A DNA stretch of 64,000 nt from Oceanibacterium hippocampi (GTDB lineage Bacteria > Pseudomonadota > Alphaproteobacteria > Sneathiellales > Sneathiellaceae). The notes under the pieces are model-generated. The model had not been told where the DNA came from. It was given only the letters and a program-made list of their open reading frames with translations, and made no database searches. The DNA is taken from assembly GCF_900172325.1 (NCBI RefSeq), contig NZ_FWFR01000001.1:186001-250000 (forward strand), given 5' to 3'. Shown piece after piece: positions 8,357 to 40,590 of the stretch; positions within the stretch are counted from its first letter, which is position 1; each line of letters begins with the position of its first letter. The position numbers were made by a program, and so were the translations under genes.

Positions 8357-9712
8357 ATGGCGGTTTCCGATCACGTCGATATTGATCAATTCATGGCAGG
8401 CCTGAAACGGCGCAACCCGGGCGAGACCGAGTTTCATCAGGCGGTCTACGAAGTGGCCATGAATGTCTATGACTATATTCAGGACAAGGAAAAGTATCAT
8501 CAATGGCAGATCCTGCGGCGGATCGCCGAGCCCGACCGGATCATCATCTTCCGGGTCTGCTGGGAGGACGATAACGGCAATATCCGCGTCAATCGCGGCT
8601 ACCGCGTCCAGAACAACAATTCGATCGGCCCCTACAAGGGCGGGATCCGCTTCCATCCGAGCGTCAATCTCAGCATCCTCAAGTTCCTGGCCTTCGAGCA
8701 GACCTTCAAGAACAGCCTGACCGGTCTGCCGATGGGCGGCGGCAAGGGCGGCTCGGACTTCAACCCGAAGGGCAAGTCCGACAACGAGGTCATGCGTTTC
8801 TGCCAGGCCTTCATGAGCGAGCTGTATCGCCATATCGGCGAGGACACCGACGTTCCGGCCGGCGACATCGGCGTGGGTGCCCGCGAGATCGGCTACATGT
8901 TCGGCCAGTACAAGCGTCTCAAGAACAGCTTCGTCGGCGTGCTCACCGGAAAGGGCATGGAGTTCGGCGGCAGCCCGATCCGCACCGAGGCGACGGGCTA
9001 CGGCACGGTCTATTTCATGCAGGACATGCTGGCCCACCAGAAGAACGCGATCGAGGGCAAGACCTGTCTCGTATCCGGCTCGGGCAATGTCGCGACCTAT
9101 GCGACCGAGAAGCTGACCCAGCTTGGCGGCAAGGTGGTGACGCTCTCCGATTCGACCGGCTTCATCTACGACAAGGAGGGCATCGACAAGGACAAGCTTG
9201 CCTTCATCGTCGATCTGAAGGGTCGGCGCCGGGGCCGCATCGAGGAAGCGGCGAAGGAATTCGGCTGCGAGTTCCATGCCGGGAAACGGCCCTGGAGCGT
9301 GCCTTGCGATCTGGCCTTCCCCTGCGCGACGCAGAACGAGATCAGCACCAAGGAAGCCCACACGCTGATCGAGAACGGCTGCCAGGGCGTGTCGGAAGGC
9401 GCCAACATGCCGACCGAGCAGGAGGGCATCCACGCCTTCACCGCGGCCAAGATCCTGTTCGCGCCGAGCAAGGCGGCCAATGCCGGCGGCGTCGCCGTTT
9501 CCGGCCTCGAGATGAGCCAGAACTCGGCCCGGATCACCTGGAAGGAAGCGGAACTGCAACAGCTGCTCCGCGACATCATGCAGGGCATCCACGATCAGTG
9601 CCTGCAGTATGGCAAGTCGAAGGACAGCGACTATGTCGACTATGTGAAGGGCGCGAATATCGCCGGCTTCACCAAGGTCGCCGATGCCATGATCGCCTAC
9701 GGCGTGCTCTGA
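8357..9712 (+). CDS. gdhA: NADP-type glutamate dehydrogenase
   Basis: This 451-residue hexameric-type enzyme catalyses reversible amination of 2-oxoglutarate to glutamate and so assimilates ammonium in the cytosol. The substrate domain has KGGIRFHPSVN and the catalytic-lysine segment PMGGGKGGSDFNPKGKS (about residues 125-145). The Rossmann domain has VSGSGNVATYATEKL (about 238-252). The ending SQNSARITW and the sequence around EGANMPT are typical of the 450-residue NADP group (E. coli GdhA-like). The start is ATG 8357 after AGGAG. A strong terminator follows at 9737-9765. Confidence 0.96.
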   Translation: MAVSDHVDIDQFMAGLKRRNPGETEFHQAVYEVAMNVYDYIQDKEKYHQWQILRRIAEPDRIIIFRVCWEDDNGNIRVNRGYRVQNNNSIGPYKGGIRFHPSVNLSILKFLAFEQTFKNSLTGLPMGGGKGGSDFNPKGKSDNEVMRFCQAFMSELYRHIGEDTDVPAGDIGVGAREIGYMFGQYKRLKNSFVGVLTGKGMEFGGSPIRTEATGYGTVYFMQDMLAHQKNAIEGKTCLVSGSGNVATYATEKLTQLGGKVVTLSDSTGFIYDKEGIDKDKLAFIVDLKGRRRGRIEEAAKEFGCEFHAGKRPWSVPCDLAFPCATQNEISTKEAHTLIENGCQGVSEGANMPTEQEGIHAFTAAKILFAPSKAANAGGVAVSGLEMSQNSARITWKEAELQQLLRDIMQGIHDQCLQYGKSKDSDYVDYVKGANIAGFTKVADAMIAYGVL

Positions 9713-9736
9713 CGCCCGATCGCGACCATCGACGGA

Positions 9737-9765
9737 GGGCCGCGCCGGCAACGGCGCGGCCCTTT
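9737..9765 (+). terminator. Intrinsic terminator after gdhA
   Basis: A perfect 10-bp GC stem (GGGCCGCGCC / GGCGCGGCCC, loop GGCAAC) is followed by TTT. It lies 25 bp past the gdhA stop and between convergent genes, so it may also work on the opposite strand. Confidence 0.8.
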
Positions 9766-9780
9766 CCGTTCCGGGTGGCT

Positions 9781-26670: not shown

Positions 26671-26691
26671 CGCCATTCCCTGCCTTGAGGG

Positions 26692-27786
26692 TCAGATGTC
26701 GAAATACTTCTCACGCGCCTGAACGAAGGCGCCGTCGGTATCGCGCGAACGCGTCCGCACGATATTGAGCGACTCGACGAAGCTCTCGGCAGTCTTCTTG
26801 ACCAGCGCGTCGCCGGAATCGCGGAGGCTGGTCATCACCTCCTTCGCGGCGTCGGCACCGGCCTTCAGGATCTCCTCCGGGAACTGCCGCACGTTGACGC
26901 CGTGATCGTTCACGAGCGTCTTGAGCGCGCGCGGGTCGTTGGCATAGAAGTCGGAAGCGACCTGATCGTACTCCGCCTGCGCGACGTCCCTGATGAGCGC
27001 CTGGAGATCGGCCGGCAGTTCCTGATACTTCTTCTTGTCGACGACCAGCTCGGTTGCCAGGCCCGGCTCCACGAAGCTCGGGAAATAGTAGTTCTTGGCC
27101 ACCTGGTAGAAGCCGAGCGCCAGGTCGTTGTAGGGCCCGACGAACTCGGCCGCGTCGAGCGTGCCCGACTGCAGGGCCTGGAAGATCTCGCCGGCCGCCA
27201 GGTTGGTGACGGTCGCGCCGAGCTTCTCCCATACGCGGCCGCCGAGGCCGGGCGTGCGGAATCGCAGGCCCTTGACGCTGTCGACGCCGGTCAGCTCGTT
27301 GCGGAACCAGCCGCCGGCCTGCGTGCCGGTATCGCCGGACAGAAAGCCCTGAACGCCGAACTGGTCGTAGATCTCGTCCCAGATTTCCTGGCCGCCCATG
27401 TAGCGGACCCAGGCGGTCAGCTCGCGCGAGGTCATGCCATAGGGCACGCCGGTGAAGAAGGAGAGCGCCGGGGATTTGTTCTGCCAGTAATAGGCGGCGC
27501 CGTGGCTCATCTCGGCCGTACCGTCGATCACCGCGTCCAGCGACTGCAGCGGCGGCACCAGTTCGCCGGCGGAATAGACCTGAACCGTCAGGCGGCCACC
27601 GGAGGCGGCGGTGATGCGGTCAGCCAGACGCTGCGCGCCGACGCCGAGGCCGGGGAAGTTCTTGGGCCAGGTGGTGACCATGCGCCAGGTGACGTTGCCC
27701 TTGGCAATGGCAGGCGCCGCCAGGGTAGCGGCTGCGGCGCCAACGCCGAGTGCACCGGACTTGACAATAAAGGAACGGCGATCCAC
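26692..27786 (-). CDS. dctP: TRAP transporter substrate-binding protein (DctP, TakP-like), system 1
   Basis: A 364-residue periplasmic binding protein. The N-terminus, MDRRSFIVKSGALGVGAAAA, is a Tat-like leader (DRRSFIVK, then Ala-rich region, cleavage near AIA). The mature protein starts TWRMVTTWPKNFPG, with a conserved basic/aromatic region GLRFRTPGLGG and the GPYNDLALGFYQVAKNYYFP segment seen in TakP-like proteins that bind 2-oxo acids or aromatic/mannitol-type ligands. The start is GTG 27784-27786 after AAAGGAGACC; a longer frame to 27957 has no site. The gene is convergent to dctQM, an uncommon layout. The ligand is unknown. Confidence 0.87.
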   Translation of the reverse strand: MDRRSFIVKSGALGVGAAAATLAAPAIAKGNVTWRMVTTWPKNFPGLGVGAQRLADRITAASGGRLTVQVYSAGELVPPLQSLDAVIDGTAEMSHGAAYYWQNKSPALSFFTGVPYGMTSRELTAWVRYMGGQEIWDEIYDQFGVQGFLSGDTGTQAGGWFRNELTGVDSVKGLRFRTPGLGGRVWEKLGATVTNLAAGEIFQALQSGTLDAAEFVGPYNDLALGFYQVAKNYYFPSFVEPGLATELVVDKKKYQELPADLQALIRDVAQAEYDQVASDFYANDPRALKTLVNDHGVNVRQFPEEILKAGADAAKEVMTSLRDSGDALVKKTAESFVESLNIVRTRSRDTDGAFVQAREKYFDI

Positions 27787-28142
27787 TGGTGGTCTCCTTT
27801 GTCTGATTGTTTTTGCCAGGGTCAGAACGACCCCTTTGCTTGCGAGCGTTTCAGCCCAACGGAATAGATGCAAATATTCCCGACTGTTTCCACCACAAAC
27901 GAAAGGCGGAACGTGGTCGCGCCGCAGTTTCGCGGCGGGCTGAAAATGCGCGCACATGTGTCCTCACGGGCGCTTTCCGGCGCTTGCGAAATTGTCTCGG
28001 CGATGGCGGCATAGCAGTCCACTACCCAGCGCAAAGATCGCGCTTTCCCGGCATGCCGGGAAACGCAAAGCATCTTCGCGGAGAGTGCGAAAATCAGGCT
28101 GTTCGCGAGATTGAAACGGTTACAAAGCAGCCGGGCAGGCGC
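27787..28142. other. Gap between dctP (system 1) and the ferredoxin reductase gene
   Basis: A 356-bp gene-free stretch, both flanking genes on the minus strand. It must hold the dctP promoter and the end of the long catabolic transcript. The notable content is the 20-bp perfect palindrome at 28044-28063. The open frames crossing it have no start signal. Confidence 0.6.
28044..28063. promoter_or_regulatory. Perfect 20-bp palindrome upstream of dctP
   Basis: TTTCCCGGCATGCCGGGAAA reads the same on both strands, with no central spacer, and is bracketed by CGCAAAG repeats (at 28031 and 28064). It is 80 bp past the reductase stop and 258 bp before the dctP start. The shape suits a dimeric repressor operator; without a T run it is a poor terminator. 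Confidence 0.5.
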
Positions 28143-29411
28143 TCAGTCCGGCTTCCCGTTCGCCGCCGCCTCTTTCGCGAGCCGTTTCAGCGGTGTGTCC
28201 GGATCAGCAAGGGCTCTCGGATCCACGATGGCGCGCAGCTCGATCAATTGCTTCAGGGGCCGACGTTCGCGACCGGCATTGAACAGGGCCGCCATCGCGA
28301 TCCGCCCCTCGCTAAGGCCCAAAGTCAGGAAGCTGCCGCTTTCCGGATCGCAACGTACCAGGACACGCTCGACGGGTTGCTTCAGACCGAGCAATTGCAG
28401 ATTGAGGTCGTACTGATCGGTCCAGAACCAAGGCACGCCGCCATAACCTTCCGGGGCGCCGAGGATCGCCTTCGCGGCCGCCTGCGGGGCCAGTTCCGCG
28501 TTCTCCCACGATTCCAGGCGTACCGGTCGGCCAAGCCACGCATCATCGAAGCGCGCGCAGTCGCCGACCGCATAGACATCGTCCGCCACCCGGCAGTGAC
28601 TGTCGGTCAGGATCCCGCCCACACCTGCCGTGTCGCAGGACAGTCCAGCCGCCTGCGCCAGTTCGACATTGGGGATGCCGCCAACGCCGACCACGGCCAC
28701 ATCCGCGGGCAGACAGCTGCCATCCGCCAGTCGCACGGCGCGGAGGCGACCAATCCGGCCCTCGAACGCGACGACACGCGCGCCAAGCCGGATGTCGACG
28801 CCACGATGCCGGTGCCGACGGGCAAGATGGTCGGCAACATGCGACGACACGGCGCGCTCCAGAAGCTGGGTCTGCGTTTCCAGAACGGTGACCCGACAGC
28901 CCCTGGCAACCGCGCTGGCGGCAACCTCGAGGCCGATGAAACCGCCCCCCACCAGCACAACATCTCCGCCGGAACCCAGCAGGTGCTCAAGACGCCTTGC
29001 GTCGCGGGCGGTACGCAGGGAAAGCACGCCTTCCAGCCCGGTGCCGGGGCAATCGACCGTTCGCGCCCGGCATCCGGTTGCCAGAACCAGGATGTCGAAA
29101 TTCTCGGCGCTCCCTCCCCCGCTGACAATTCTGCGAGCGCCGATTTCCAGCGTCTCGACCCGCGCCGACGTGCGCAGTTCGATCGCGTTGTCGGCATACC
29201 ATTCCGGCCCGTATATGCGGCCGTTCTCCGGGCTGGTCGATCCGGCCAGCACGTCCTTCGACAGTGGCGGGCGCTCATAGGGAGGATCGGGCTCGTCGCC
29301 CAGCAGCAATATGCGGTCCTGCCAGCCCTGCTTGCGCAAGGCGGCCGCCGTGCGGGCGCCGGCTTGCCCGGCCCCGACGATCACGGCGCTTCGAGTGGCC
29401 ATGCTACCCAT
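28143..29411 (-). CDS. Ferredoxin reductase (FAD/NAD, rubredoxin-reductase type) of the Rieske system
   Basis: A 422-residue flavoprotein. The FAD-binding motif is VIVGAGQAGARTAAALRKQG near the start. ERPPLSKD follows, as in BphA4/putidaredoxin-reductase-type enzymes. The NAD-binding motif is VLVGGGFIGLEVAA (about residues 148-161), and the second FAD motif is DVYAVGDCARF. It passes electrons from NADH to the Rieske ferredoxin encoded 46 bp upstream. It is the last gene of the minus-strand catabolic run. The start could be ATG 29411 or ATG 29402; neither has a strong ribosome site. Confidence 0.88.
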   Translation of the reverse strand: MGSMATRSAVIVGAGQAGARTAAALRKQGWQDRILLLGDEPDPPYERPPLSKDVLAGSTSPENGRIYGPEWYADNAIELRTSARVETLEIGARRIVSGGGSAENFDILVLATGCRARTVDCPGTGLEGVLSLRTARDARRLEHLLGSGGDVVLVGGGFIGLEVAASAVARGCRVTVLETQTQLLERAVSSHVADHLARRHRHRGVDIRLGARVVAFEGRIGRLRAVRLADGSCLPADVAVVGVGGIPNVELAQAAGLSCDTAGVGGILTDSHCRVADDVYAVGDCARFDDAWLGRPVRLESWENAELAPQAAAKAILGAPEGYGGVPWFWTDQYDLNLQLLGLKQPVERVLVRCDPESGSFLTLGLSEGRIAMAALFNAGRERRPLKQLIELRAIVDPRALADPDTPLKRLAKEAAANGKPD

Positions 29412-29457: not shown

Positions 29458-29769
29458 CTAGATTTCGACCAGCAGGTCGTCACCCTCGATCCTGACCGTG
29501 AAGGTGCGAACGTCGTCCTCGACGGGGCCGCTTTCGGCCTTGCCCGTACGGATGTCGAAGATCCCCTGATGCAGGGGGCACTCGATCTTCCCGTCCTCCA
29601 CATATCCGTCGGAAAGAAGGGCGAAGGCATGGGTGCAGATATTGTGGGTGGCGAAAAACTCCCCGTCCACGTTGTAGACGGCCAGCGGCACGCCCTCGAC
29701 TTCCACGCCCATCACCTCCCCGTCGGAGAGATCCGACTTCGTACCAATCTTGCACCAGGGCATCATCAC
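29458..29769 (-). CDS. Rieske-type ferredoxin of the ring-hydroxylating system
   Basis: A 103-residue soluble [2Fe-2S] protein. The two cluster motifs are C45-x-H47 (NICTHAF) and C64-x2-H67 (ECPLHQG), spaced as in NahAb/BphA3-type ferredoxins. It shuttles electrons from the FAD reductase (next gene) to the terminal oxygenase alpha/beta pair encoded 5 kb upstream in the same orientation. The protein begins MMMPWCKIG, and any of the three Met codons could be the start. Its presence completes a three-component (class II/III-like) dioxygenase system. Confidence 0.92.
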   Translation of the reverse strand: MMMPWCKIGTKSDLSDGEVMGVEVEGVPLAVYNVDGEFFATHNICTHAFALLSDGYVEDGKIECPLHQGIFDIRTGKAESGPVEDDVRTFTVRIEGDDLLVEI

Positions 29770-29857: not shown

Positions 29858-30778
29858 CTATTCGGCGGCATTCTCCCGCAGCAGCCCCGCGCGCTGCAGG
29901 ACGGTGTCGAGACGCTGCTCGAGGTCAGACGCGGCCGGCATCATCGGCAGGCGGTGCGTGTTCAGGGGCAACAGGCCGAGCTTTCGCATCATGCTCTTGA
30001 CGGGGATCGGGTTGGTATCGAAGAAGACCGCCTTGTTCAGTTCCCACAGCCGGTAGTGAAGCGCGCGGCCCCGCGCCAGGTCGCCCGCGGCAACCGACTC
30101 GTAGAGATCCGCCACCGCCTCTGGCCAGACATTGGCGACCGCGTTCATCATGCCGGCCGCACCGAGACACAGCATGGGAAAACTCAGTTCCTCCAGCCCG
30201 ACGAAAATCCGGAATTCCTCGCCGAAGGTCTGCAACATCTCGCTGACGAGAGCCAGGTCGTTCACCGCATGCTTAATGCCGACAAAGTCGTCCGACGCGG
30301 CGGTAACGTCCTTCAGCGTGTCGAGCGTTACCGCGACCGCTGTCCGGCCGGGAATGTGATAGATCATCCAGGGCTTGTCGGTACGCTTGGAGAGTTCCGT
30401 GTAGTAGGCCGTCAGCCCGCGCTGCGGCGGCCGGATATAGTAGGGCGTGACGATCAGCAGCGCGTCGGCACCGGCTTTGGTCGCATGCTCGGTCAGTTCG
30501 GCCGACTCGACAAAGCTCTGCGATCCGGTCGCGGCGACCACCGGAACGCGTCCCGCGGCGGCATCGATGCCGACGTCGACCAGCCTGTTCCGTTCGTCGA
30601 CGGTTAGGGTCGAGGGTTCCGCACTGGTTCCGTTGATGACGATGCCGTGTGTCCCGGCCTGGATCTGCGAATCGACCAGACGCGCATAGGCGTCGTAATC
30701 GACCGCGCCGTCGGCGCCGAACGGGGTGACCAGTGGCGGGTAGCTGCCCCGCAGGAAATCGTTGGAAAGGCTACGCAT
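29858..30778 (-). CDS. DapA/NAL-family Schiff-base aldolase or hydratase-aldolase
   Basis: A 306-residue TIM-barrel protein of the dihydrodipicolinate-synthase superfamily. Y140 (IYHIPGRT) and the Schiff-base Lys K169 (FVGIKHA) are in the expected places, and R145 fits the pyruvate-carboxylate-binding Arg. The usual GTTGE signature reads GTSAE (50-54), which differs from housekeeping DapA. The family also includes trans-o-hydroxybenzylidenepyruvate hydratase-aldolase (NahE) and sugar-acid lyases. Here it lies inside an aromatic catabolic run, between a CMD-like protein and the Rieske ferredoxin. A pyruvate-releasing lyase step is therefore more likely than lysine synthesis. The substrate is inferred only. 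Confidence 0.82.
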   Translation of the reverse strand: MRSLSNDFLRGSYPPLVTPFGADGAVDYDAYARLVDSQIQAGTHGIVINGTSAEPSTLTVDERNRLVDVGIDAAAGRVPVVAATGSQSFVESAELTEHATKAGADALLIVTPYYIRPPQRGLTAYYTELSKRTDKPWMIYHIPGRTAVAVTLDTLKDVTAASDDFVGIKHAVNDLALVSEMLQTFGEEFRIFVGLEELSFPMLCLGAAGMMNAVANVWPEAVADLYESVAAGDLARGRALHYRLWELNKAVFFDTNPIPVKSMMRKLGLLPLNTHRLPMMPAASDLEQRLDTVLQRAGLLRENAAE

Positions 30779-30899: not shown

Positions 30900-31454
30900 T
30901 CAGGCCTCTGCGTCGAATATCGACGGGACCGGCAGTTTCATTGCGAAGGCGTTGTTGAGAGTAGCGATCAGCGAGAAGCGCGTGATCTGCAGCATCGCCG
31001 CCACGGTCTTCTCCTCATCCAGACACGCGCGGACAGCGCGCAGTTCGGCATCAACGTCGACGCCGCGACGTTCGACGACTGCAAGGGCGAGATTCCGCAA
31101 CGCCTTGTCCTCGTCCGTCAGCAGGTCTTCATCCGCGTCGGCGCGACCGGTGAGGGCGGCAATCCATGCCTTGTCGAGTCCCAGCCGCACGGACAGCCGT
31201 TCGTGCTGGATGCGTTCGTAATCGCCGCCGAGCGCGGCGCACACGGTCAGCGCGAGGAGCTCGTTCTGCCGATCCGACAGCGGCGCCTTCACGGCCGCCG
31301 TGAACTTCATGAAGGTCGTTATCGATTCGGGCACGTGGCCGGCGACCTGGAAGAACTCCCCGAAATAGCCGAGCCGCTCCACGGTCGGCCGAAGGAAATC
31401 CTGCAGTTCCCGGTCGCATTGTTCCAGCTCCAGCCGCCGGATACCGTCAGACAT
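30900..31454 (-). CDS. Carboxymuconolactone decarboxylase/AhpD-like protein
   Basis: A 184-residue all-helical protein of the CMD superfamily. The core LSDRQNELLALTVCAALGGDY ... QHE (residues about 60-85) holds a Cys and, 12 residues later, a His, instead of the CxxC-x3-H of AhpD peroxidase reductants. It therefore resembles the non-redox carboxymuconolactone decarboxylase branch. That enzyme acts in protocatechuate catabolism, but several CMD-like proteins of unknown chemistry sit in other aromatic clusters. It is placed directly after dctM (42-bp gap). A role in lactone or keto-acid processing is plausible but unproven. Confidence 0.75.
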   Translation of the reverse strand: MSDGIRRLELEQCDRELQDFLRPTVERLGYFGEFFQVAGHVPESITTFMKFTAAVKAPLSDRQNELLALTVCAALGGDYERIQHERLSVRLGLDKAWIAALTGRADADEDLLTDEDKALRNLALAVVERRGVDVDAELRAVRACLDEEKTVAAMLQITRFSLIATLNNAFAMKLPVPSIFDAEA

Positions 31455-31496: not shown

Positions 31497-32795
31497 TCAG
31501 AGCAAGCTCGGCAGGAAGGTGATGAGCCTGGGGACTGCCCAGAGCAGCGTCATCGCGATGAGGAAGATCAGCACGACCGGCCACGCGCTGCGAAAGACAA
31601 CCGCTGTCGACAACAGGTCGGTCGACCCTTTCAGGGCAAAGAGCGCATAGCCGAACGGCGGGGTAATGCCGCCCACGGTGATGTTCAGCAGAAAGATCGT
31701 CCAGAACCAGACCGGGTCGAAACCGAGGATCGGAAGCAGCGGCGCGTATACCGGAATGACCACCAGCATCAGCGCGATCTGGTCGACGAACATGCAGAGA
31801 ATGAACGGCGCCAGCATCATCAGCAGGAACATGACGCTCGGATCGAGCGAGGTGGCCGTCACCGCCTCGATGACGCCGCGCGTCGCCCCCGTGTAGGCGA
31901 GCAGCTGCGTGAACATCTTCGAGCTTGCCATGATCACGAGAATCATGGCGCTGATCCCGGCCGCGCTGACAAGTGAATCGCGGATCATCGCAAAGTTGAG
32001 ACAGCGGTTGAAGGCCGCCGCCAGCACGGCCGCGCCGACGCCGGTCGCCGCCGCTTCGGTCGGCGTGGCGATGCCCATCAGGATGAAGCCCATGACCGAG
32101 AAGATGATCAGGGTGAAGGGCAGGATCTGCAGAACGGCGCGGCCCTTCTCGCCCAGGCTCGACGGATCGACGCGGTCGTCGTAGCGTTCGCGACGCAGGC
32201 TGAGGCGGCCATAGACATAGGCAATGAACATGAGGGCGAGCAGGATGCCGGGGATGATCCCCGCGACCAGCAGTGCCGCGATCGAGGTGTCCGACAGCGT
32301 GCCGATGATGATGACCAGAATGCTGGGCGGAATGATCGGCGCCAGCGAGCAGCCTCCCAGGATGAGCCCCGATGACATCGTCTTGTCGTAGCCGCGGCTG
32401 ACCATGATCGGCAGCACCGAGCGGCCCATCATCGCGGCGACCGCCATGCCGGCCCCCGACAGCGCGCCGAGCAGCACCGAGAGATTGATGACGACCAGGT
32501 ACTGGCGCCCGCGAACCCGCCCGGTGAGCTTGTCGACCGCGTTGAAAAGCACGTCCATCGTGCCGGAGCGGAACAGGATTTCGCCGAGCAGGATGAACAG
32601 CGGGATTGTCACCAGCGGGACACTGGTCGTGGTCTCGAAGATCGAATTCGCGAACATGCCGAACCCGCGGGTCCCGATCAGGACCCAGGTGCCGACGATA
32701 TTGATCAGGAAGAACGCGACAAATACCGGGACCCCGAACATGAAAAGCGCGAACAGGGCAGCGAAACCGACCGGCAGAACAAGGGTCCAGTCCAT
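31497..32795 (-). CDS. dctM: TRAP transporter large permease (DctM), system 2
   Basis: A 432-residue membrane subunit with about 12 helices, including GVPVFVAFFLINIVGTWVLI near the N-terminus, GAGMAVAAMMGRSVLPIM, a SLAPIIPPSILVIIIG signature and TPTEAAATGVGA in the second half. It is the channel subunit of the TRAP importer inside the Rieske cluster. It starts 3 bp after the dctQ stop, so the two are co-translated. With the binding protein 33388-34374 this is a complete PQM set. It probably imports the aromatic acid that the cluster degrades. Confidence 0.9.
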   Translation of the reverse strand: MDWTLVLPVGFAALFALFMFGVPVFVAFFLINIVGTWVLIGTRGFGMFANSIFETTTSVPLVTIPLFILLGEILFRSGTMDVLFNAVDKLTGRVRGRQYLVVINLSVLLGALSGAGMAVAAMMGRSVLPIMVSRGYDKTMSSGLILGGCSLAPIIPPSILVIIIGTLSDTSIAALLVAGIIPGILLALMFIAYVYGRLSLRRERYDDRVDPSSLGEKGRAVLQILPFTLIIFSVMGFILMGIATPTEAAATGVGAAVLAAAFNRCLNFAMIRDSLVSAAGISAMILVIMASSKMFTQLLAYTGATRGVIEAVTATSLDPSVMFLLMMLAPFILCMFVDQIALMLVVIPVYAPLLPILGFDPVWFWTIFLLNITVGGITPPFGYALFALKGSTDLLSTAVVFRSAWPVVLIFLIAMTLLWAVPRLITFLPSLL

Positions 32796-32798
32796 CGC

Positions 32799-33305
32799 TC
32801 AGCCCACCTGCTGTTCGGGACCGCGTCCCATCGCCTGGCTCACAAGATGGCGCAGAAAATAGAGGGCGGTGCTGGCGAAGCCGTAGGTGATGAAGACCGA
32901 TATCCACCATTTCGGGATCGGATTGGCGGCGAGCGTCATGAGGCCGCGATCGAACTGGCGGAAATTCTCGTTGAGGCTGATCCATGCACCGATCAGGCAC
33001 ACCAGGAAGCTGATGCAATAGACGAACAGCCGCGAGAGCCGGCGGCTCCGGGGCCCGAGCGATTCCTGCAGGAACTCGATCGCGATATGGCTGTGCGTCC
33101 GGGCCAGGCGGGGAACCAGCAGGAAGGTGCCGACGCACAGCATGTAGGCACTCAGATCGCTGGCCCATGTCGTCGGGCTGTTGAAGAAATAGCGCGACGT
33201 GACCTCGAAGATGTAGCCGAGTGCGATTGCGCCAAGCGCCGCGGCACCGAGCAGCGTGCCCCATTCCGTCAGCGTGTCATGCGCCCGCAGAACCGCTCTG
33301 ATCAT
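32799..33305 (-). CDS. dctQ: TRAP transporter small permease (DctQ), system 2
   Basis: A 168-residue, four-helix membrane subunit (MIRAVLRAHDTLTEWG, helices about residues 16-38, 50-70, 88-110, 130-150). The conserved FEVTSRYFFNSPTTWASDLS segment between helices 1 and 2 is typical. The start chosen is ATG 33305; a GTG nine codons upstream (33332) is an alternative. It lies between dctP (82-bp gap) and dctM (3-bp gap) in the standard P-Q-M order. Confidence 0.86.
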   Translation of the reverse strand: MIRAVLRAHDTLTEWGTLLGAAALGAIALGYIFEVTSRYFFNSPTTWASDLSAYMLCVGTFLLVPRLARTHSHIAIEFLQESLGPRSRRLSRLFVYCISFLVCLIGAWISLNENFRQFDRGLMTLAANPIPKWWISVFITYGFASTALYFLRHLVSQAMGRGPEQQVG

Positions 33306-33387
33306 GTTCCCATCGCCCCCGGTGAGGTGCACGTGACGATCGAGGGGCAGCCCGTTGCGGGTTGCCCCTCGACACGGATTTCCCGCC

Positions 33388-34374
33388 TCATTCGGCAGGG
33401 GCGAACAGGAGGTCGTTCGCGGCGGCGATCTTGTACAGCTCGGCTGTCAGGTCCGGATCACGCTTGCCCGCGATGGCCCAGTAGCCCTCGGATTGCGCCT
33501 TGATCTCGCGAGCGGCGACATCGGGGGCAAAATCGATGCGCTTCATGCCCAGTTCGACCAGCTTCTTTTCCTCTTCCGCTTCCCAGACATCGAACCGCTG
33601 GCGCACATCCAGTTCGAGCTGCTTGCCCTGCTCGGCGAGGATCGCCTGTTCATCGGCGGACAACGCGTTCCAGGTATCGAGGTTGATCAGGATCGGGTGC
33701 GTCGTATTGCCGATCGCCGGCCGGGTGAAACCCTTCGCGACCTCGTACCACTTGAAGGCCACGGCACCCAGCACCGGCCAGTTGGCGCCGTCGACCACGC
33801 CCCGTTCCAGTGACGTGTAGATCTCGCCGCCGGGCAACACGACCGGCGAACCGCCCAGCGCCTTGATGGTCGAATGGATCGGCGGTGTCCCGCGGATCTT
33901 CATGCCGTCGAAGTCACCCGCCGGCGACAGGCCTTCGCGCATGAGAAAATGGATGCCGCCGCTTGCCGGAAGGGATAGCAGCTTGAGGCCAAGCGTCTGA
34001 TAATGCTTGTCGACGAACTCGAAAACGCCGGCGCTGCGCCGCCGAGCCGGATCGTTGACCATGGCATCGACGGCGATGTTCATCGTCGTCGCGCCGGCAT
34101 GGTAGGCCGTGTGCGTGAACAGCATGTCGAAAACACCGGCCTGAACGGGTTCGAGCTGCTCGAACGGCGGAACCGTTTCCGGACCGGCCACGCGGAAGGT
34201 TATCTTGCCGTTGGAGGCTTTCGTGACCAGGTCGACATAGGCTTCGGCCATGCCTTCGGTGCCACGGTAGTTCGAGTTCCAGCTTGTGAGGAAGCTGAGC
34301 TCGGTTGCCTGCGCCGGCGCCCCCGCGAGCATCGCCACGCCCACCGCCGCCAGAATTGTGTTCACATATTTCAT
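33388..34374 (-). CDS. dctP: TRAP transporter substrate-binding protein (DctP), system 2
   Basis: A 328-residue periplasmic binding protein with a Sec signal (MKYVNTILAAVGVAMLAGAP, cleavage after AQA). The mature part begins TELSFLTSWNSNYRGTE and contains the DctP hallmark region GMKIRGTPPIHSTIKALGG, with the Arg (in KIRG) that normally contacts the ligand carboxylate, and ERGVVDGANWPV. The start is ATG 34374 after GGAGGAAA; the longer frame to 34557 is unsupported. Its cluster position, just downstream of the Rieske oxygenase, suggests an aromatic carboxylate ligand; the known p-coumarate TRAP protein TarP is a precedent for that type. Confidence 0.9.
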   Translation of the reverse strand: MKYVNTILAAVGVAMLAGAPAQATELSFLTSWNSNYRGTEGMAEAYVDLVTKASNGKITFRVAGPETVPPFEQLEPVQAGVFDMLFTHTAYHAGATTMNIAVDAMVNDPARRRSAGVFEFVDKHYQTLGLKLLSLPASGGIHFLMREGLSPAGDFDGMKIRGTPPIHSTIKALGGSPVVLPGGEIYTSLERGVVDGANWPVLGAVAFKWYEVAKGFTRPAIGNTTHPILINLDTWNALSADEQAILAEQGKQLELDVRQRFDVWEAEEEKKLVELGMKRIDFAPDVAAREIKAQSEGYWAIAGKRDPDLTAELYKIAAANDLLFAPAE

Positions 34375-34684
34375 CTCGTTTCCTCCGATGCGGTCCTGTG
34401 CTTCAGGAACATTTTCTGGGTGCGTCGGCCAGCCGCCATGGCGGCTTGCGCGATGCTCCATCGTCATGCCTTGTCGTCGCCCTCGTTTACGTCCGTCACA
34501 GCGGGCGTTTATATCGTTGCCGCGGAAGAGATCAGCGGACTCCCCGCGCCGGAACACTGAATATTCGTCTGACCGAAAATCGAAGTATTATTTCCAGGGT
34601 CGAAATCTAGTGAACAATCTTCGATAAGACGACAGAAACAACTACACGCCAACGTTGCCTCTCTATTTCAGAGGCCGACTTCCA
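34375..34684. other. Gap between the Rieske oxygenase genes and TRAP system 2
   Basis: A 310-bp stretch between genes of the same (minus) strand. The part at 34560-34660 is AT-rich and contains an inverted repeat TCGAA-N15-TTCGA around 34602-34626, so an internal promoter for the TRAP genes is likely here. A hairpin (34657-34675) sits just past the oxygenase alpha stop. No gene is seen. Confidence 0.5.
34657..34675 (-). terminator. Weak hairpin after the oxygenase alpha gene
   Basis: A GCCTCT / AGAGGC stem with a 7-base loop, 10 bases past the stop on the minus strand. No T run follows, so it may be a stabilising or partial-termination element that lowers TRAP expression relative to the oxygenase. 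Confidence 0.35.
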
Positions 34685-35923
34685 TCAATAGCCCATTTCC
34701 TTGCGGTAGAACTTGTAGAAGCCCCGTATCATTACTTCCGTCACCATGTGGTCCTGCGGTTCCGTTTCCTTGCCACCCATTTCGAGGACTGCCGCCGCAT
34801 TGCCGGCCGTCGACGCGCCGAACTGGCATTGGGCAAGCACTTCGCTGTCGTCCACGGAGACGAAGCCGGAAGGCCCCATGAGGTTGGCATGTCGCAGTCT
34901 CAGCCGGCGGAGTTCGGGGGTGTCGTCGGCATAGCCGAAGAAGTGCCAGGAAATTTCCGTCTGCCCCGGCCCTTTCGGAATGATGTGCCGCATGGCGAGG
35001 GTGTTGGCCTGTTGCTGCAGCACGACGCTCGGGAACAGCGTTATGCCGGCCACCTCCCTGTCTGCGAATTCCGGCGCCGGCGTCACGCTGTCCTTGTCGT
35101 TCATCTCGAGGCTGTCGGCGAAGCGCGCCATTTCCTTGGTTGCGCCGGTCGTCTTCTTGCCTTCGTTGCGCGACACCATCACCCCGTGCCGGCCGTCCCC
35201 GTCACACGATGAATGGGATTTCGAATCCGCCCGCCAGAGGCCGAAGGTGATGAAGAACGCGTGCAGCAGGGTGGCGTGGTACGGGTCCTTCAGATTCTCG
35301 AAGTACATCTTCCAATTGCAGGGAATGATCTGCCGGCTGTAACCGAGGAGCTCCAGTTCGCGCCCGGGGAAAAGACGGTCGACATAGTGGAGCGCGTCTG
35401 GCCCGCAATAGCTTTCGAAGTCAGGAACATCCGGATCGTAGCTCGCCCAGATCACACCGCCGCGCTCGTGAACCTTCAGCTTGCGGAGGCCATGCCGGGA
35501 ATTGTCGAAGTCACGCGGCATACCCCCCTTGCCGAGCGCCCCGCGTTTCAGCGGCACGCCGGTCAGGTTGCCCTTCAGGTCGTAGCTCCACTGGTGATAA
35601 GGGCAGATCAGGTCCTTCGCGGTACCGCGATCCTGCCAGCAGACCAGCGCCCCCTTGTGCGCGCACCGGTTCTCCAGGACGTTCGCGACGCCGTCCTTGT
35701 CCCGCGTCACGACGACCTGGCGGGTGCCGACCCAGCTGCGCTTGAAGTCCCCCGGGTTCGGGATTTCGCAGGACAGCCCGACGAAGCACCAGGACGCCCC
35801 CCAGAACAGACGCTCCATCTCGCGGTCGAAAACGTCCTGGTCGGTGTAGACCCAGTACGGGATCCGGGTGAAACCTTCCGCCGGCCAGCGGCGCTCGGCG
35901 GATTTGTCTACAAGCGAACTCAT
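34685..35923 (-). CDS. Rieske aromatic-ring-hydroxylating dioxygenase, alpha subunit (salicylate 5-hydroxylase/anthranilate-dioxygenase-like)
   Basis: A 412-residue catalytic subunit. The Rieske motifs are C87-x-H89 (NRCAHKGALV) and C107-x2-H110 (ICPYHQWSYDLKG). The mononuclear iron site is in EN-x2-DPYHATLLH: H216 and H221, with bridging D213. The third ligand is probably D358 or D359 (VSVDDSEV). The stretches GVPLKRGALGKGGMP and NWKMYFENLKDPYHATLLH resemble NagG (salicylate 5-hydroxylase) and AndAc (anthranilate dioxygenase) more than naphthalene-type enzymes. The substrate is thus likely an ortho-substituted benzoate. The ring substituent cannot be told from sequence. The gene is 47 bp after its beta subunit. 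Confidence 0.88.
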   Translation of the reverse strand: MSSLVDKSAERRWPAEGFTRIPYWVYTDQDVFDREMERLFWGASWCFVGLSCEIPNPGDFKRSWVGTRQVVVTRDKDGVANVLENRCAHKGALVCWQDRGTAKDLICPYHQWSYDLKGNLTGVPLKRGALGKGGMPRDFDNSRHGLRKLKVHERGGVIWASYDPDVPDFESYCGPDALHYVDRLFPGRELELLGYSRQIIPCNWKMYFENLKDPYHATLLHAFFITFGLWRADSKSHSSCDGDGRHGVMVSRNEGKKTTGATKEMARFADSLEMNDKDSVTPAPEFADREVAGITLFPSVVLQQQANTLAMRHIIPKGPGQTEISWHFFGYADDTPELRRLRLRHANLMGPSGFVSVDDSEVLAQCQFGASTAGNAAAVLEMGGKETEPQDHMVTEVMIRGFYKFYRKEMGY

Positions 35924-35970: not shown

Positions 35971-36495
35971 TCACAACGGCCAGACCAGCGTGTTGATGAC
36001 GCGGTAATTGTCGTAAACCGCGCAATGCTCCCGGAACCGAAAGCCGCTGTCGTCCCGGACGACCCTGTCGATGTAGCGGCCCACGCTGAAGACCACCGGG
36101 TCACGGTTCGACAGCGCCTCGGTGACCAGGTAGTTGGCCTGCACGAGGATCGTTCCATCGGCTTCCGTTCCGCGAAGTCGCACGCCGCTGACAAAATGGC
36201 GCTGCGAGCGGGGTTCGAAGACGGCGGTCTCCCGGATCGCCTGGACCCGGTCTTTCAGCATCGCCATCCCGTCGCAGTACATCGTGGCGAGCGGCAGAGA
36301 CAGATCCCAGTTTTCCCGGGAGATCGCCTTGTAGACAGCGTCGTCGGTGAAGAATTCGAGCCACGTCTCCAGCTCGTTCTCATCGATCGCGAGCGTGTAT
36401 TCCTCATAGAAATCCCGGAGATCCCGGCGCAAATCCCGCAACTCCCGGCTCTCGGACTGCCGCCCGCGATAGACCCTCGTCACGTTCTCCTTCAT
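35971..36495 (-). CDS. Aromatic-ring-hydroxylating dioxygenase, beta subunit
   Basis: A 174-residue small subunit of the SnoaL/NTF2-like fold, required for alpha3beta3 assembly and some specificity. Recognisable parts are LRDFYEEYTLAIDENELETW near the start, LFTDDAVY-like EFFTDDAVY, the RDRVQAIR-like LKDRVQAIRETAVFEP, and the C-terminal FREHCAVYDNYRVINTLVWP. The start is ATG 36495, with GGGGGG 8 bases upstream; a GTG at 36510 is an alternative. It is followed by the alpha gene; this beta-before-alpha order is the reverse of the usual arrangement. Confidence 0.88.
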   Translation of the reverse strand: MKENVTRVYRGRQSESRELRDLRRDLRDFYEEYTLAIDENELETWLEFFTDDAVYKAISRENWDLSLPLATMYCDGMAMLKDRVQAIRETAVFEPRSQRHFVSGVRLRGTEADGTILVQANYLVTEALSNRDPVVFSVGRYIDRVVRDDSGFRFREHCAVYDNYRVINTLVWPL

Positions 36496-36516
36496 GACCC
36501 GTCCCCCCACCGTCGG

Positions 36517-37620
36517 TCAGCGCGCCGCCGCCAGTTCGGCCCGGTTGGTCTGGGCGCCGTACTGGGAACCGAGATTGACGATCGGTGCCTTCAGGGTCTC
36601 CTGCCAGATGAGGGAGTCGGCCGCGATATGCATCGGGTGGTCCTGGACGGTCAGGGCGTAGAAACCCTGGTCCCGGGATGCGTGGTTATGCACTGCCCAG
36701 CCTGGCGCGGACAGCATCAGATCACCCGCCTCCCAGACGAACTTGCGACCTGCGACGGTGCTGCGACCGTTGCCCGCGAAGTAGTAGTTGATCGCGGCAG
36801 AGGCATGGCGATGCGGCTGGTCCACGGTGTTCGGCGGATATTTCGCGATGGTGGCGAAGAAACTGTGCGTCGTGCCATTGCGGCCGAGTGTCGCCGGGTT
36901 GTAGAGCAGGTAGAGCCGCCGGCCGGTATAATCCTTGCCGAGTTCCGCGACCCGGCTCAGCCGGCTTTCGACCTCCTGCCACGGAAACAGCAGCGGCGGG
37001 TTCGGAACGACGTCGGGGTCAATCAGAAACTCGTAACCCCGCAGCCGCGCGCCATCGCTGCCGATCGGGATGTCGTCGGCGGAATCGCGGGCCCGCTTGC
37101 CGGCCGCATCGTTCCCCGGCGCTGCCGCATCCGGAATCTGGACGCTCGGCTCGTCTTCCACATAGTGGACTTCCAGCAGTTCCAGCAGCGGCGCGTTGGA
37201 ATAGGAAAAGAAGACCTGCAGGTCCGGGCCGTCGTTGCGATAGCGATAGGTTGCCAGGCCCGGCGTGGTCCAGAGATCGTACCGGCCGAAGGCGATGTCG
37301 CGATCGCCGATCCGTGCCTTGCCGCTACCGGCAATACACATGGTGACCTGCGAGGAGTTGTGACGGATTGGCGCCGTTTCCTCGCCGGGCTTGAGGACGT
37401 TGATCGTCACGTCGATTCCCGGCGCCAGCCCCTGCCCGACCCGCGCCATGGGGTGAACGACCTTCGAGGCGCGCCGCCCATGGGCCGGCCGGTCGATATC
37501 GGCCAGGCGCTCGATCTCGCGGTCGATCTCGGCCCTGGGGACGACGAGCGCAGGCCATTCCTCGTTTTCGCGACGTTCGCCATTGCTGACATCGACGAAA
37601 TTTGCCTTCAATTCAGTCAT
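36517..37620 (-). CDS. Two-cupin ring-cleavage dioxygenase candidate (gentisate 1,2-dioxygenase-like)
   Basis: A 367-residue protein with two cupin domains, like gentisate and salicylate dioxygenases. The N-terminal cupin (about residues 70-150) has only one His in the first motif (IRHNSSQVTMCIAG, H87). The C-terminal cupin has the full set: H270 and H272 (PHRHASAAINYYFAG) and H311/H313 (WAVHNHAS). In characterised gentisate dioxygenases the catalytic iron is bound in the N-terminal cupin, so here the site seems moved to the C-terminal one. This suggests a diverged function, perhaps a hydroxylated amino-aromatic. The start is ATG 37620 after AGGAG. It lies between the cyclodeaminase-like gene and the oxygenase beta gene. 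Confidence 0.75.
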   Translation of the reverse strand: MTELKANFVDVSNGERRENEEWPALVVPRAEIDREIERLADIDRPAHGRRASKVVHPMARVGQGLAPGIDVTINVLKPGEETAPIRHNSSQVTMCIAGSGKARIGDRDIAFGRYDLWTTPGLATYRYRNDGPDLQVFFSYSNAPLLELLEVHYVEDEPSVQIPDAAAPGNDAAGKRARDSADDIPIGSDGARLRGYEFLIDPDVVPNPPLLFPWQEVESRLSRVAELGKDYTGRRLYLLYNPATLGRNGTTHSFFATIAKYPPNTVDQPHRHASAAINYYFAGNGRSTVAGRKFVWEAGDLMLSAPGWAVHNHASRDQGFYALTVQDHPMHIAADSLIWQETLKAPIVNLGSQYGAQTNRAELAAAR

Positions 37621-37643: not shown

Positions 37644-38663
37644 CTACTGCGCCGCCTGCGTACCGGTCGCCCGCCGCCACTGCGGGGCAACCCGGACCGG
37701 CGATGGAATCTTCAGGCCGAGCCGCTGCTTGACGGCCCGCTCATACGCGGCCTTGGCGATGCAGAGATCCGAGATGCCCATGCCCATCGCCTTGAAGATC
37801 GAGAGATCGGCCGTGGCCGGCCGCGTCAGCCCCTCGACAATCGCCGCGCTCAACGTGCGCACCTTCTGCCAGTCGCCGGGCCCCTTTTCGAAGCGATCGA
37901 TGAATTCGCTGGATGCCAGTTTGGCATTCGGCAGGTTGTCGACGATCACCAGATCGGCGCGATCGAAGACGTCCTGCGTGAATTCGGCCTTTTGCGGAAG
38001 AATGGCGCCGACGGCATTCAGATGGGTGCCGCGGGCCAGCATGTCCGCGGTCAGGAACGGGTCGCTCGACCGGGTGATCGTGGTGACGATCGGCTGATCG
38101 GCGACGCAGGCCTCGACCGAGCCTGCTTCCTCGATCGCGAAGGGGAATGCCTCACGCGCCCTGGCAACGAAGGCCTGGCGCTTCTCCGCCGTCGGCGAGA
38201 ACACCTTCAGGCATTTCAGCGGACGGACCGCGTTCACCGCGGCGACCTGCGTTATCGCCTGCGCCCCGGTCCCGATCAGCGCCATGGTATCGGCATCTTC
38301 GGCGGCCATTCTCCTCGTCGCGACACCGCTTATTCCCGAGGTGCGGAGCTGGCCGAGCACGGCGGCCTCCATCGCCGCCAGCAACCGACCGTTGTCGGCG
38401 TCGAACAGGTTGAAGACCGCTGTCGCGCCCCGCTTCGTGTTCGCCCAGGTCTTGAAGCCGACGTAACCGTCCTTCGGGAACATCGAACCCAGCGCATGCA
38501 TCGAGCTGCCGTCGCCCCAGACGCCAAGCGCCTTGGGCACGTTGTAGGCACGCTCCCTGGCCTCGAGCGCCAGCCCTGTTTCCAACGCTTCGATCGCGTC
38601 GTCGAGGTCCACGAGTTCAGCGATCTCGGCCTCGTTCAGCCAGATGAGGTTGTCGTTCGACAC
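37644..38663 (-). CDS. Ornithine cyclodeaminase/mu-crystallin-family protein with altered catalytic site
   Basis: A 339-residue NAD(P)-dependent protein. The substrate domain has K71 (GFKTWANT) and R107 (QLRTSGISG), which bind the amino-acid carboxylate. The Rossmann motif is LIGTGAQA (129-136). In true ornithine cyclodeaminase a catalytic Asp follows NAVGA; here the sequence is NAVGAILPQK, with I221 in its place. It is therefore unlikely to deaminate ornithine. The family also includes imine reductases, alanine dehydrogenase and NAD-oxidising steps in opine-like metabolism. Its place between the FAH hydrolase and the cupin suggests handling of an imine, enamine or amino intermediate from the ring-cleavage product. 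Confidence 0.82.
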   Translation of the reverse strand: MSNDNLIWLNEAEIAELVDLDDAIEALETGLALEARERAYNVPKALGVWGDGSSMHALGSMFPKDGYVGFKTWANTKRGATAVFNLFDADNGRLLAAMEAAVLGQLRTSGISGVATRRMAAEDADTMALIGTGAQAITQVAAVNAVRPLKCLKVFSPTAEKRQAFVARAREAFPFAIEEAGSVEACVADQPIVTTITRSSDPFLTADMLARGTHLNAVGAILPQKAEFTQDVFDRADLVIVDNLPNAKLASSEFIDRFEKGPGDWQKVRTLSAAIVEGLTRPATADLSIFKAMGMGISDLCIAKAAYERAVKQRLGLKIPSPVRVAPQWRRATGTQAAQ

Positions 38664-38715: not shown

Positions 38716-39537
38716 TTATTCTGCGATGATGGGATTGCTGAGGGTTCCGACGCCCTCGATCTGGACTTCGAAAACGTCGCCCGGCTTCATGAATACCGGC
38801 GGTTTCCGCGTGAAGCCGACGCCCGATGGCGTCCCGGTCACGATGACATCGCCGGGCAGGAGTTCCGCCCATGTCGAGACGTAGGCAATGAGTTGCGGGA
38901 TCGAGAAGATCATGTCGGCCGTCGTTTCACGCTGCATGACCTCGCCGTTCAAACGGCTTTCGAGCATCAGGGCGTGTGGATCGGCGATCTCGTCGGCGGT
39001 CGTCAACCACGGGCCGAAGGCGCCGCTGGCAGAAAAGTTCTTTCCGGCCGTCGCCTGGGTTCCATGCTTCTGGAAGTCGCGTACGGAATTCTCCGCGAAA
39101 CAGGCATAGCCCGCGACGTGGTCCATCGCCCGTGCTTCAGTAATATTGCGTCCGGCCCGGCCGACGATCACGGCCAGTTCACCCTCGAAGTCGAATTCGG
39201 GACTGGCATTCGGTGCGACAACCGGAACGCCGTGGCCGACCTGCGAGCCGTTGAACCGGCAGAATATCGAGGGACGCGACGGCAACGCCATGCCGGCCTC
39301 TTCCGCATGCTTGCGGTAGTTGAGGCCGATACAGAGTATCTTGTCCGCAGTCGGGATTGGCGGCAGGAATTCGATCTCGTCCAGCGGCATGGCCGCGCCG
39401 CTCGGCTGCGTCGGAATGCCATGGCCGAGGGCGGTCCTGAGGTCGGGAATGTCGGCTGTCTCGAGCGGGATCGCCGTTTGATCCTCGATCCGGGCGAACC
39501 CGGTTCGGCCGTTGCCGCGATAACTGGCCAGTCGCAT
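38716..39537 (-). CDS. Fumarylacetoacetate hydrolase (FAH)-family hydrolase
   Basis: A 273-residue hydrolase. H77 lies in CIGLNYRKHAEEAG, and the metal site has E118 and E120 in PEFDFEGELAVIVG with an Asp in RAMDHVAGY. GDVIVTGTPSGVGFTRKPP at the C-terminus is the usual FAH signature. Family members include maleylpyruvate and fumarylpyruvate hydrolases, which act right after gentisate cleavage; that fits the neighbouring cupin. The start is ATG 39537 with AGGAGGAAGG upstream; the frame to 39612 is not supported. It is the first gene of the long minus-strand run and is divergent from the LysR gene. Confidence 0.88.
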   Translation of the reverse strand: MRLASYRGNGRTGFARIEDQTAIPLETADIPDLRTALGHGIPTQPSGAAMPLDEIEFLPPIPTADKILCIGLNYRKHAEEAGMALPSRPSIFCRFNGSQVGHGVPVVAPNASPEFDFEGELAVIVGRAGRNITEARAMDHVAGYACFAENSVRDFQKHGTQATAGKNFSASGAFGPWLTTADEIADPHALMLESRLNGEVMQRETTADMIFSIPQLIAYVSTWAELLPGDVIVTGTPSGVGFTRKPPVFMKPGDVFEVQIEGVGTLSNPIIAE

Positions 39538-39620
39538 GGCCTTCCTCCTGTTGCCGCCTTGAGTACAGCGTTTTCGACTGTTGTTTCGTCGTTGTTGACC
39601 GAGCCTAGCCAACCGCTACA

Positions 39621-39642: not shown

Positions 39643-39669
39643 AAATTTAATTTTCTCGTTTTGGAAAAA

Positions 39670-40590
39670 ATGAACCTGTTCGAAGCGATGCGGATTTTCA
39701 GCGCTGTCGTCGAGGCGGGCAGCCTTTCGGAGGCTGGCCGGCGCCTGAACATTTCGACGTCGACCATCAGCAAGACACTGACGGCGCTGGAGGAGCGGGT
39801 GAAGGTGACGCTGATAAGCCGGACCACCCGCCAGCTTTCCGTCACCGAGATCGGCCAGAGCTTCTATCGCCGTTGTTCGCAGATCCTCGAGGACGTCGAA
39901 TCCGCCGAATCCGCGCTATCCGAATGGACCGCGGCGCCGCGGGGATCGCTGCGCGTCACCGCCCCGACCGTGCTGTCGCTGTGGCACATATCGTCCCGCC
40001 TCGCCCGCTTCGCGGAACTCTATCCGCATATCCGCCTCGACATCGTGCTGAGCAACGAGAACTTCGACCTGATCCATGAAGGGATCGACGTCGGCATCCG
40101 GATCGCGGCCGAACCGGATCCGGCATTGACCGCCATCATGCTGACAGAGACGAGGCGAGCATTCTGTGCGTCGCCCGACTATCTCGCGAGGAAGGGTATT
40201 CCGACCACGCCTCAGGAGCTGCAGAGCCACAACTGCCTGATAGCCACCGGCCAGACTCAGAACCGATGGCCCTACAGGGAGCATGGCCGGACCCGGCACG
40301 TGCTGGTTCAGGGCAATTTCGTCGCCAACAATCCGGACGTCATTCGAAACGCGGCGATCCGCGGCCTGGGGGTCGCCATGCTGCCAACCTGGCTGATCAA
40401 CGGCGACTTGCGCAGCGGCACGCTGCAACCGGTTCTTGCGGGGTACGAACCGTCGCCGAACGGCCTTTATATCGTGACCCCCACACGCCGCTTCCTGCCC
40501 ATGAAAACGCGCTGCTTCATCGAGTTCATGCAGGCAGAATTCGACGGACTGCCGCCATGGGAACGGCCGGACGAACAACCCGGTTCCTGA
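39670..40590 (+). CDS. LysR-family transcriptional regulator
   Basis: A 306-residue regulator. The wHTH is in the first 60 residues (MNLFEAMRIFSAVVEAGSLS through TISKTLTALEERVKVTLISR). The effector domain follows from about residue 90 (RGSLRVTAPTVLSLWHIS). ATG 39670 is chosen over the TTG at 39661, because the ATG gives the standard family N-terminus. It is divergent from the catabolic run and is likely its activator or repressor, responding to the aromatic acid or a ring-cleavage product. A hairpin covers its stop (40589-40606). Confidence 0.92.
   Translation: MNLFEAMRIFSAVVEAGSLSEAGRRLNISTSTISKTLTALEERVKVTLISRTTRQLSVTEIGQSFYRRCSQILEDVESAESALSEWTAAPRGSLRVTAPTVLSLWHISSRLARFAELYPHIRLDIVLSNENFDLIHEGIDVGIRIAAEPDPALTAIMLTETRRAFCASPDYLARKGIPTTPQELQSHNCLIATGQTQNRWPYREHGRTRHVLVQGNFVANNPDVIRNAAIRGLGVAMLPTWLINGDLRSGTLQPVLAGYEPSPNGLYIVTPTRRFLPMKTRCFIEFMQAEFDGLPPWERPDEQPGS

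Follow-up and report, generated by a model that had tools for sequence, protein, structure and literature searches.

The bicupin gene at positions 36517–37620 of the window (the whole 64,000-nucleotide stretch of Oceanibacterium hippocampi DNA analyzed here) raises a simple question. In an enzyme that resembles gentisate and salicylate dioxygenases, which of the two cupins carries the metal, and what does the answer imply for its chemistry and its history?

Metal-Binding Residues of the Two Cupins

The gene lies on the minus strand, with its ATG at 37620 and its stop at 36517, and translates to 367 amino acids; an alternative GTG reading gives 387. The ATG lies 23 bases beyond 37644, where the preceding gene stops, has an AGGAG ∼9 bases on its 5′ side, and reproduces the numbering of H87, H270/H272, and H311/H313. 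A frame or start error was ruled out by the translation of this reading together with the AGGAG. Cupin_2 (PF07883) was matched by Pfam in two stretches of the protein (50.8 bits against a gathering cut-off of 27.2), in place of the single-cupin architecture found in 5-nitrosalicylate 1,2-dioxygenase.

An earlier note on this DNA had placed H270/H272 and H311/H313 in the second cupin, and this was borne out: the C-terminal cupin contains HRH at 270–272 and HNH at 311–313. The same note had remarked on a lone H87 where the first cupin should have an HxH. This too holds in the alignment, in which H87 corresponds to the second histidine of the first HxH and I85 to its first position, while Y125 occupies the third-ligand position and Y127 the second-shell position. 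The N-terminal cupin has IRH (85–87) and YRY (125–127) where a metal site needs two HxH motifs, and only one of its three ligand positions (I85, H87, and Y125) is kept. Translation, the two Cupin_2 matches, the family alignment, and a model with its fold search describe a putative bicupin dioxygenase gene with H270, H272, and H311 as ligands, H313 in the second shell, and a degenerate N-terminal cupin.

Conservation was assessed in an alignment of 20 proteins: the window protein, the products of 13 loci, two copies from a Hyphomonadaceae MAG (L007), and four plasmid-borne homologs (H1, H4, H7, and H8, drawn from eight close plasmid relatives) of Paraburkholderia, Cupriavidus, and two Rhodococcus. 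The 19 others share 36%–53% identity with the window protein. H270, H272, H311, and H313 are histidine in 20/20. Position 85 is histidine in none of the 20, H87 in 10, position 125 in 6, and position 127 in 8, and a complete N-terminal metal triad is absent from all 20 homologs aligned. With all four C-terminal histidines fixed and histidine absent from position 85 throughout, the pattern is not a product of chance. As far as the residues tell, no examined member has a complete metal site in its N-terminal half, and strong constraint acts on the C-terminal site. The L007 contig encodes two diverged bicupin paralogs, at 5381–6517 (plus strand) and 8657–9778 (minus strand), which are ∼45% and 36% identical to the window protein, and both carry the C-terminal site.

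A sample of 385 genomes from the window's bacterial class contained the family in 12, the window's own genome among them. Within its own family and order, only the window's genome had it (1/25), and a phylum sample gave 2 genomes in 398, both among those already found. Eight plasmids carry relatives with 44%–54% identity over 97%–98% of the query, and Cupriavidus necator N-1 has a homolog on pBB1; no relative was found among the viral contigs searched with the family alignment. Such a rare and scattered distribution suggests an accessory catabolic gene.

Relationship to Gentisate and Salicylate Dioxygenases

The window protein scored 68.6 bits against TIGR02272 (gentisate 1,2-dioxygenase, GDO; cut-off 442.1 bits) and 75 bits against NF049978 (5-aminosalicylate 1,2-dioxygenase MabB; cut-off 650 bits). 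Membership of either family was ruled out by these curated cut-offs and by the pocket residues described below. When the PDB was searched with the family profile at E 0.001, only GDO, salicylate 1,2-dioxygenase (SDO), and 5-nitrosalicylate dioxygenase (5NSDO) were matched; a single-sequence search additionally gave one uncharacterized cupin (E 0.019). Structure prediction and alignment with GDO, as proposed in the earlier note, returned a fold of the GDO/SDO type; by sequence, its N-terminal site is incomplete. The AlphaFold model, which was built from a three-sequence alignment and has a mean pLDDT of only 58.4 (pTM 0.66), gave VIA-align Z scores of 24.2–26.9 for SDO and GDO across both cupins, the next unrelated fold reaching 19.4. 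The top match of this low-confidence model was 2phd (Z 26.9, 265 residues, rmsd 3.1), and Foldseek concurred.

The starting premise, that characterized GDO and SDO bind iron in the first cupin, stood in part. For SDO and E. coli GDO, a working N-terminal cupin and a vestigial C-terminal cupin are described in passages of PMC10306065, and all 29 readable GDO-type proteins have an intact HxH...HxH in the N-terminal half. (There are 29 N-terminal rows and 30 C-terminal rows because one GDO row, L070, comprises the C-terminal half only, owing to an internal stop.) The premise does not extend to the whole class: the C-terminal half also has HxH...HxH in 6/30 GDO-type proteins, and S. pomeroyi GDO is reported in the same passages of PMC10306065 to have two ferrous centers. 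The portion of PMC4019311 that deals with the latter enzyme differs, describing only the N-terminal site. The C-terminal-only site of the window protein is therefore reversed relative to SDO and E. coli GDO, in both of which the N-terminal cupin does the work. The further proposal of a separate subfamily is upheld by scores far below the curated cut-offs, by invariant pocket residues of the family's own, and by a gene neighborhood of its own. Judged by residues and scores, the family of the window protein uses the opposite half from GDO and SDO and is a distinct subfamily.

A C-terminal site is known from other bicupins. The C-terminal cupin is described as the active site in homogentisate dioxygenase (sections of PMC4019311 and PMC2684688), and KduI, a bicupin that is not a dioxygenase, is described with a C-terminal-only site (section of PMC2684688). 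As far as our searches go, the reversal is new for the gentisate/salicylate class, but not for bicupins generally. No published description of the present bicupin family was found in the literature searched, which lay mostly outside subscription papers.

Origin of the Switched Site

Two histories, both compatible with dioxygenase function, could have produced the reversal, and we regard the balance between them as about even. According to the first, which comes close to an even chance, a collinear ancestor with two sites, similar to S. pomeroyi GDO, gave rise to both groups by complementary loss: GDO and SDO lost the C-terminal site and the window family the N-terminal one. Such losses would fit the structural match to SDO and GDO, which runs collinearly over the full length, although a collinear alignment is expected of any bicupin regardless of the ancestry of its domains. 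Homologs with two sites do exist (the 6/30 GDO-type proteins), their C-terminal sites resemble that of the family (HRH...HEH), and rearrangement is not needed. Crosswise profile matches and a single-domain tree lean the opposite way, without significance.

According to the second, which we place a little short of evens, the order of the domains was exchanged by circular permutation or fusion. The N-terminal cupin would derive from the vestigial GDO C-terminal cupin, and the C-terminal cupin from a catalytic N-terminal cupin or a monocupin; the active half would have changed position only. For 2d40 and SDO, the matches in PDB profile searches are crosswise: the family's C-terminal cupin falls on their N-terminal cupins, and its N-terminal cupin on their C-terminal ones. 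In profile-profile comparison, the N-terminal cupin scored 85.2 against the GDO C-terminal cupin and 63.8 against the GDO N-terminal cupin. However, the N-terminal cupin profile alone matches many GDO N-terminal cupins better than GDO C-terminal cupins, and the profile-profile scores of the C-terminal cupin tie (99.5 against GDO N-terminal and 99.6 against GDO C-terminal cupins).

A similar ambivalence was met in the trees and the models. In the single-domain tree (100 domain rows, reduced to 68 at 80% identity), the family's C-terminal cupin, the monocupin, and the GDO N-terminal cupins fell on one side (97/80), and the N-terminal cupin fell with the GDO C-terminal cupins. Support for an exchange-type split in the quick tree was only 58. 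Against the exchange, both cupins of 3bu7 match the family's C-terminal cupin, and kinship can be mimicked by a shared loss of metal ligands. A model of the N-terminal cupin alone (pLDDT 73.9) fitted several SDO/GDO chains over ranges that extend to their C-terminal ends, which no more than suggests a match to their C-terminal cupin; these fits were tied with 5NSDO.

Constrained-topology tests rejected none of exchange, collinear descent, and independent duplication. Collinear descent had a p-AU of 0.68 in one test, in which the constrained collinear tree stood 4.1 log units above the quick free tree; a second test gave 0.38 with all columns and 0.44 without the ligand columns. One monocupin and a long-branch paralog (the N-terminal cupin of L007:8657–9778) were excluded from these tests, and for the second the GDO C-terminal cupins were thinned to 14. 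A firm claim of domain-order exchange was withdrawn because the topology tests did not separate the three histories.

The window's own genome has other cupin genes as well. At C7:628338–628751 (L005), a monocupin ends in SLFWEEP, which resembles SLIWQET of the window C-terminal cupin; it groups with the C-terminal half of the window family in the tree, but on a long branch. At C11:21534–22550 (L071), a GDO-like bicupin has complete histidine motifs in both cupins, and the genome additionally encodes an ordinary GDO with an N-terminal site.

Catalytic Pocket and Substrate

Pocket positions were assigned by aligning the C-terminal cupin, without gaps, to the motif regions of GDO N-terminal cupins, and SDO numbering was counted from the alignment given by a PDB search and from the residue names given in parts of PMC10306065 and PMC11264262. 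The equivalents are R234 (Arg83 in SDO), F255 (Trp104), N278 (Arg127), H313 (His162), and T324 (Asp174), each of which is found in 20/20 members of the family. At the R234, H313, N278, and T324 positions, GDO-type N-terminal cupins have R, H, R, and D, respectively, in 29/29 readable proteins. The equivalents of Arg127 and Asp174 are thus missing from the intact site of the window protein. The first motif, HRHASAAIN, has no carboxylate, which indicates a 3-His site that is GDO-like and unlike that of homogentisate dioxygenase. Identity with the latter enzyme was ruled out by the HxH plus H311 and by the lack of Glu in the first motif.

In SDO, changing Arg127 abolishes activity (excerpt of PMC11264262); this residue has been proposed to supply the proton, and gentisate is bound at its 5-hydroxyl by Asp174 (excerpts of PMC10306065 and PMC11264262). 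Because Arg127 is essential there, Asn278 could mean a different reaction. The position can nevertheless change, as 5NSDO demonstrates: it has Tyr104 at the Arg127 position and is reported to refuse gentisate (excerpt of PMC10306065). The invariant Asn278 and Thr324 are the best evidence that the sequence offers for a different substrate or proton-transfer route. The two replacements argue against gentisate as the substrate, and gentisate is also unlikely because the host has an ordinary GDO gene (C16:384177–385181; 569.9 bits against the cut-off of 442.1).

Gene Neighborhood

The bicupin gene is part of a same-strand run that extends from 39612 to 26692 on the minus strand. The run opens with an FAA hydrolase family protein (38716–39612; Pfam FAA_hydrolase, 223.8 bits), a candidate hydrolase for a ring-cleavage product, and an ornithine cyclodeaminase (OCD)/mu-crystallin family protein (37644–38663; Pfam OCD_Mu_crystall, 157.7 bits). 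The bicupin is followed by the beta subunit (35971–36510; Pfam Ring_hydroxyl_B, AndAd-like) and the alpha subunit (34685–35923) of a Rieske oxygenase, the nearest solved structure to the latter being salicylate 5-hydroxylase 7c8z (E 7.4e-137). Then come a TRAP transporter, consisting of the solute-binding protein DctP (33388–34557) and the small permease DctQ (32799–33332), both recognized by Pfam, and the large permease DctM (31497–32795; family profiles), and a carboxymuconolactone-decarboxylase (CMD)-like protein (30900–31454; Pfam CMD, 27.9 bits). The remaining genes, all assigned from family profiles, encode a DHDPS-family pyruvate aldolase that is HpaI-NOT-DapA-like (29858–30778), an AndAb-like Rieske-type ferredoxin (29458–29769), an AndAa/HcaD-like ferredoxin reductase (28143–29411), and a second DctP (26692–27957). 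The last of these precedes a terminator-like stem at 26671–26646, which is among 9 stems found by a terminator scan against 10.8 expected, i.e., at chance level; a sigma-70 promoter scan was also at chance level (3 found, 2.1 expected). A LysR-family regulator (39661–40590, plus strand; family profiles) diverges from the run, and a 75% identical copy is present in locus L021.

All four Rieske components are encoded in the run; the wider family of the alpha subunit includes several clusters of unknown substrate (passages of PMC4250580). Only one DctQM pair (31497–33332) was recognized, and the two DctP proteins may share it. The lysine of the aldolase GIKHA motif, which we take to be the Schiff-base residue, is kept in 8/8 proteins aligned.

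Neighbors were surveyed in 18 related loci, in stretches of 11–25 kb, some of them ended by contig ends; eight neighbors were sought at set bit cut-offs. The aldolase is the most constant companion, with a homolog no more than 300 bp from the cupin gene at 12 of the 18. Within 5 kb, an OCD homolog was found in 7/18 and a CMD-like homolog in 6/18. The FAA hydrolase has a homolog in three loci, one of them within 5 kb. Rieske alpha lies within 5 kb in four loci and anywhere in the stretch in only five; its association with the bicupin is therefore not obligate. Neither the aldolase nor OCD occurs within 5 kb in five loci (L030, L031, L033, L036, and L037). Two of these, L030 and L031, gave no hit above the bit cut-offs to any of the eight neighbors, and L033 gave only an OCD homolog, 7.6 kb away. 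The annotation of a Paraburkholderia plasmid contains the set of bicupin, pyruvate-aldolase, CMD-like protein, and OCD; a "hypothetical protein" of this plasmid is 42% identical to the window CMD-like gene product. Between the window and L021, the aldolases are 81% identical, the LysR regulators 75%, and the reductases 63%, and the bicupins only ∼51%–52%. The aldolase, the reductase, and LysR may have a different history from that of the bicupin.

The ornithine cyclodeaminase family handles imines and amino acids, and several models of this kind were matched in the profile search. The OCD/mu-crystallin neighbor may thus hint at a nitrogen-containing substrate.

Proposed Function

The reversal of the site, its invariance, and the neighbors can be read from the DNA itself. 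We consider it likely that the bicupin, as the representative of a distinct subfamily, is a ring-cleaving dioxygenase for an aromatic acid and acts within the proposed pathway of the gene run. It probably depends on iron and opens aromatic rings, and the conserved gene set probably breaks down an aromatic acid. We infer Fe(II) as the metal, ring cleavage beside the carboxylate, hydroxylation upstream, and a downstream hydrolytic or aldol step that yields a pyruvate unit. The TRAP system would import the aromatic acid, and the four-component, salicylate-5-hydroxylase-like Rieske oxygenase of the run would hydroxylate the ring first. The substrate would chelate the metal at H270/H272/H311, where H313 and R234 would stand in for His162 and Arg83 of SDO. 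O2 would be inserted, and the bicupin would cleave the ring between the carboxylate-bearing carbon and the adjacent carbon that bears a hydroxyl (or amino) group. The oxo-acid product could then be cut by the FAA hydrolase, the DHDPS-family pyruvate aldolase, or both. The phenanthrene route may offer a parallel to this gene set, with a bicupin 1-hydroxy-2-naphthoate dioxygenase followed by a DHDPS-family hydratase-aldolase.

Use of the GDO fold for other chemistry, as an isomerase, decarboxylase, or hydrolase of a ring-cleavage product, would suit the Asn at the Arg127 position, the Thr at the Asp174 position, and the C-terminal-only sites described for bicupins outside the dioxygenases, such as KduI (section of PMC2684688), but appears improbable, given that ring-cleaving dioxygenases are nearest in both sequence and fold, that no other ring-cleavage gene was recognized among the annotated genes of the run, and that the Rieske oxygenase, FAA hydrolase, and aldolase bracket the missing ring-cleavage step.

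We therefore favor the ring-cleaving dioxygenase. A fuller version of this reading is doubtful, and we put it forward only tentatively: a GDO-type enzyme with exchanged cupins (vestigial GDO C-terminal cupin first, catalytic GDO N-terminal cupin or monocupin second) would head a dispersed, conserved pathway that degrades a possibly nitrogen-containing aromatic acid through cleavage of the ring and then by the pyruvate aldolase.

The C-terminal cupin has been described as vestigial in the gentisate/salicylate class, and a subfamily that uses this half alone would show that either half can carry the site. Its members found here come from Burkholderiales and Rhodococcus as well as from the bacterial class of the window, and the subfamily is a natural test of which features of a non-catalytic cupin are scaffold. 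The conserved gene set, in turn, probably marks an aromatic-acid pathway of which no description was found in the literature searched, again mostly outside subscription papers.

Comparison with Known Systems

The closest systems are SDO of Pseudaminobacter salicylatoxidans (2PHD) and GDO (TIGR02272; 2D40), which share with the window protein a bicupin architecture, a 3-His site, and a fold that matches over the full length. Arg83 and His162 of SDO have equivalents in R234 and H313 by sequence alignment. Unlike in these enzymes, the predicted metal site falls in the other half of the protein, Arg127 is replaced by Asn278 and Asp174 by Thr324, and the TIGR02272 score is 68.6 bits against 442.1. 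Silicibacter (Ruegeria) pomeroyi GDO (3BU7) belongs to the same bicupin class (Z 25.0), and its C-terminal HRH...HEH resembles the motifs of the window protein; sites are reported in both of its cupins (passages of PMC10306065), whereas the N-terminal cupin of the window protein lacks one.

Homogentisate 1,2-dioxygenase, likewise a ring-cleaving bicupin, has a C-terminal active site (section of PMC4019311), in the half where H270/H272/H311 are invariant in the window family. It differs in having a 2-His-1-carboxylate set, and no sequence match to the window protein was seen. 5NSDO (8CH4) is a 3-His enzyme that matches the C-terminal cupin (profile positions 210–346) and that, according to passages of PMC10306065, also lacks equivalents of Arg127 and Asp174. 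In contrast to the window protein, it has one cupin, with Tyr, Trp, and Val where the window family has Asn, His, and Thr.
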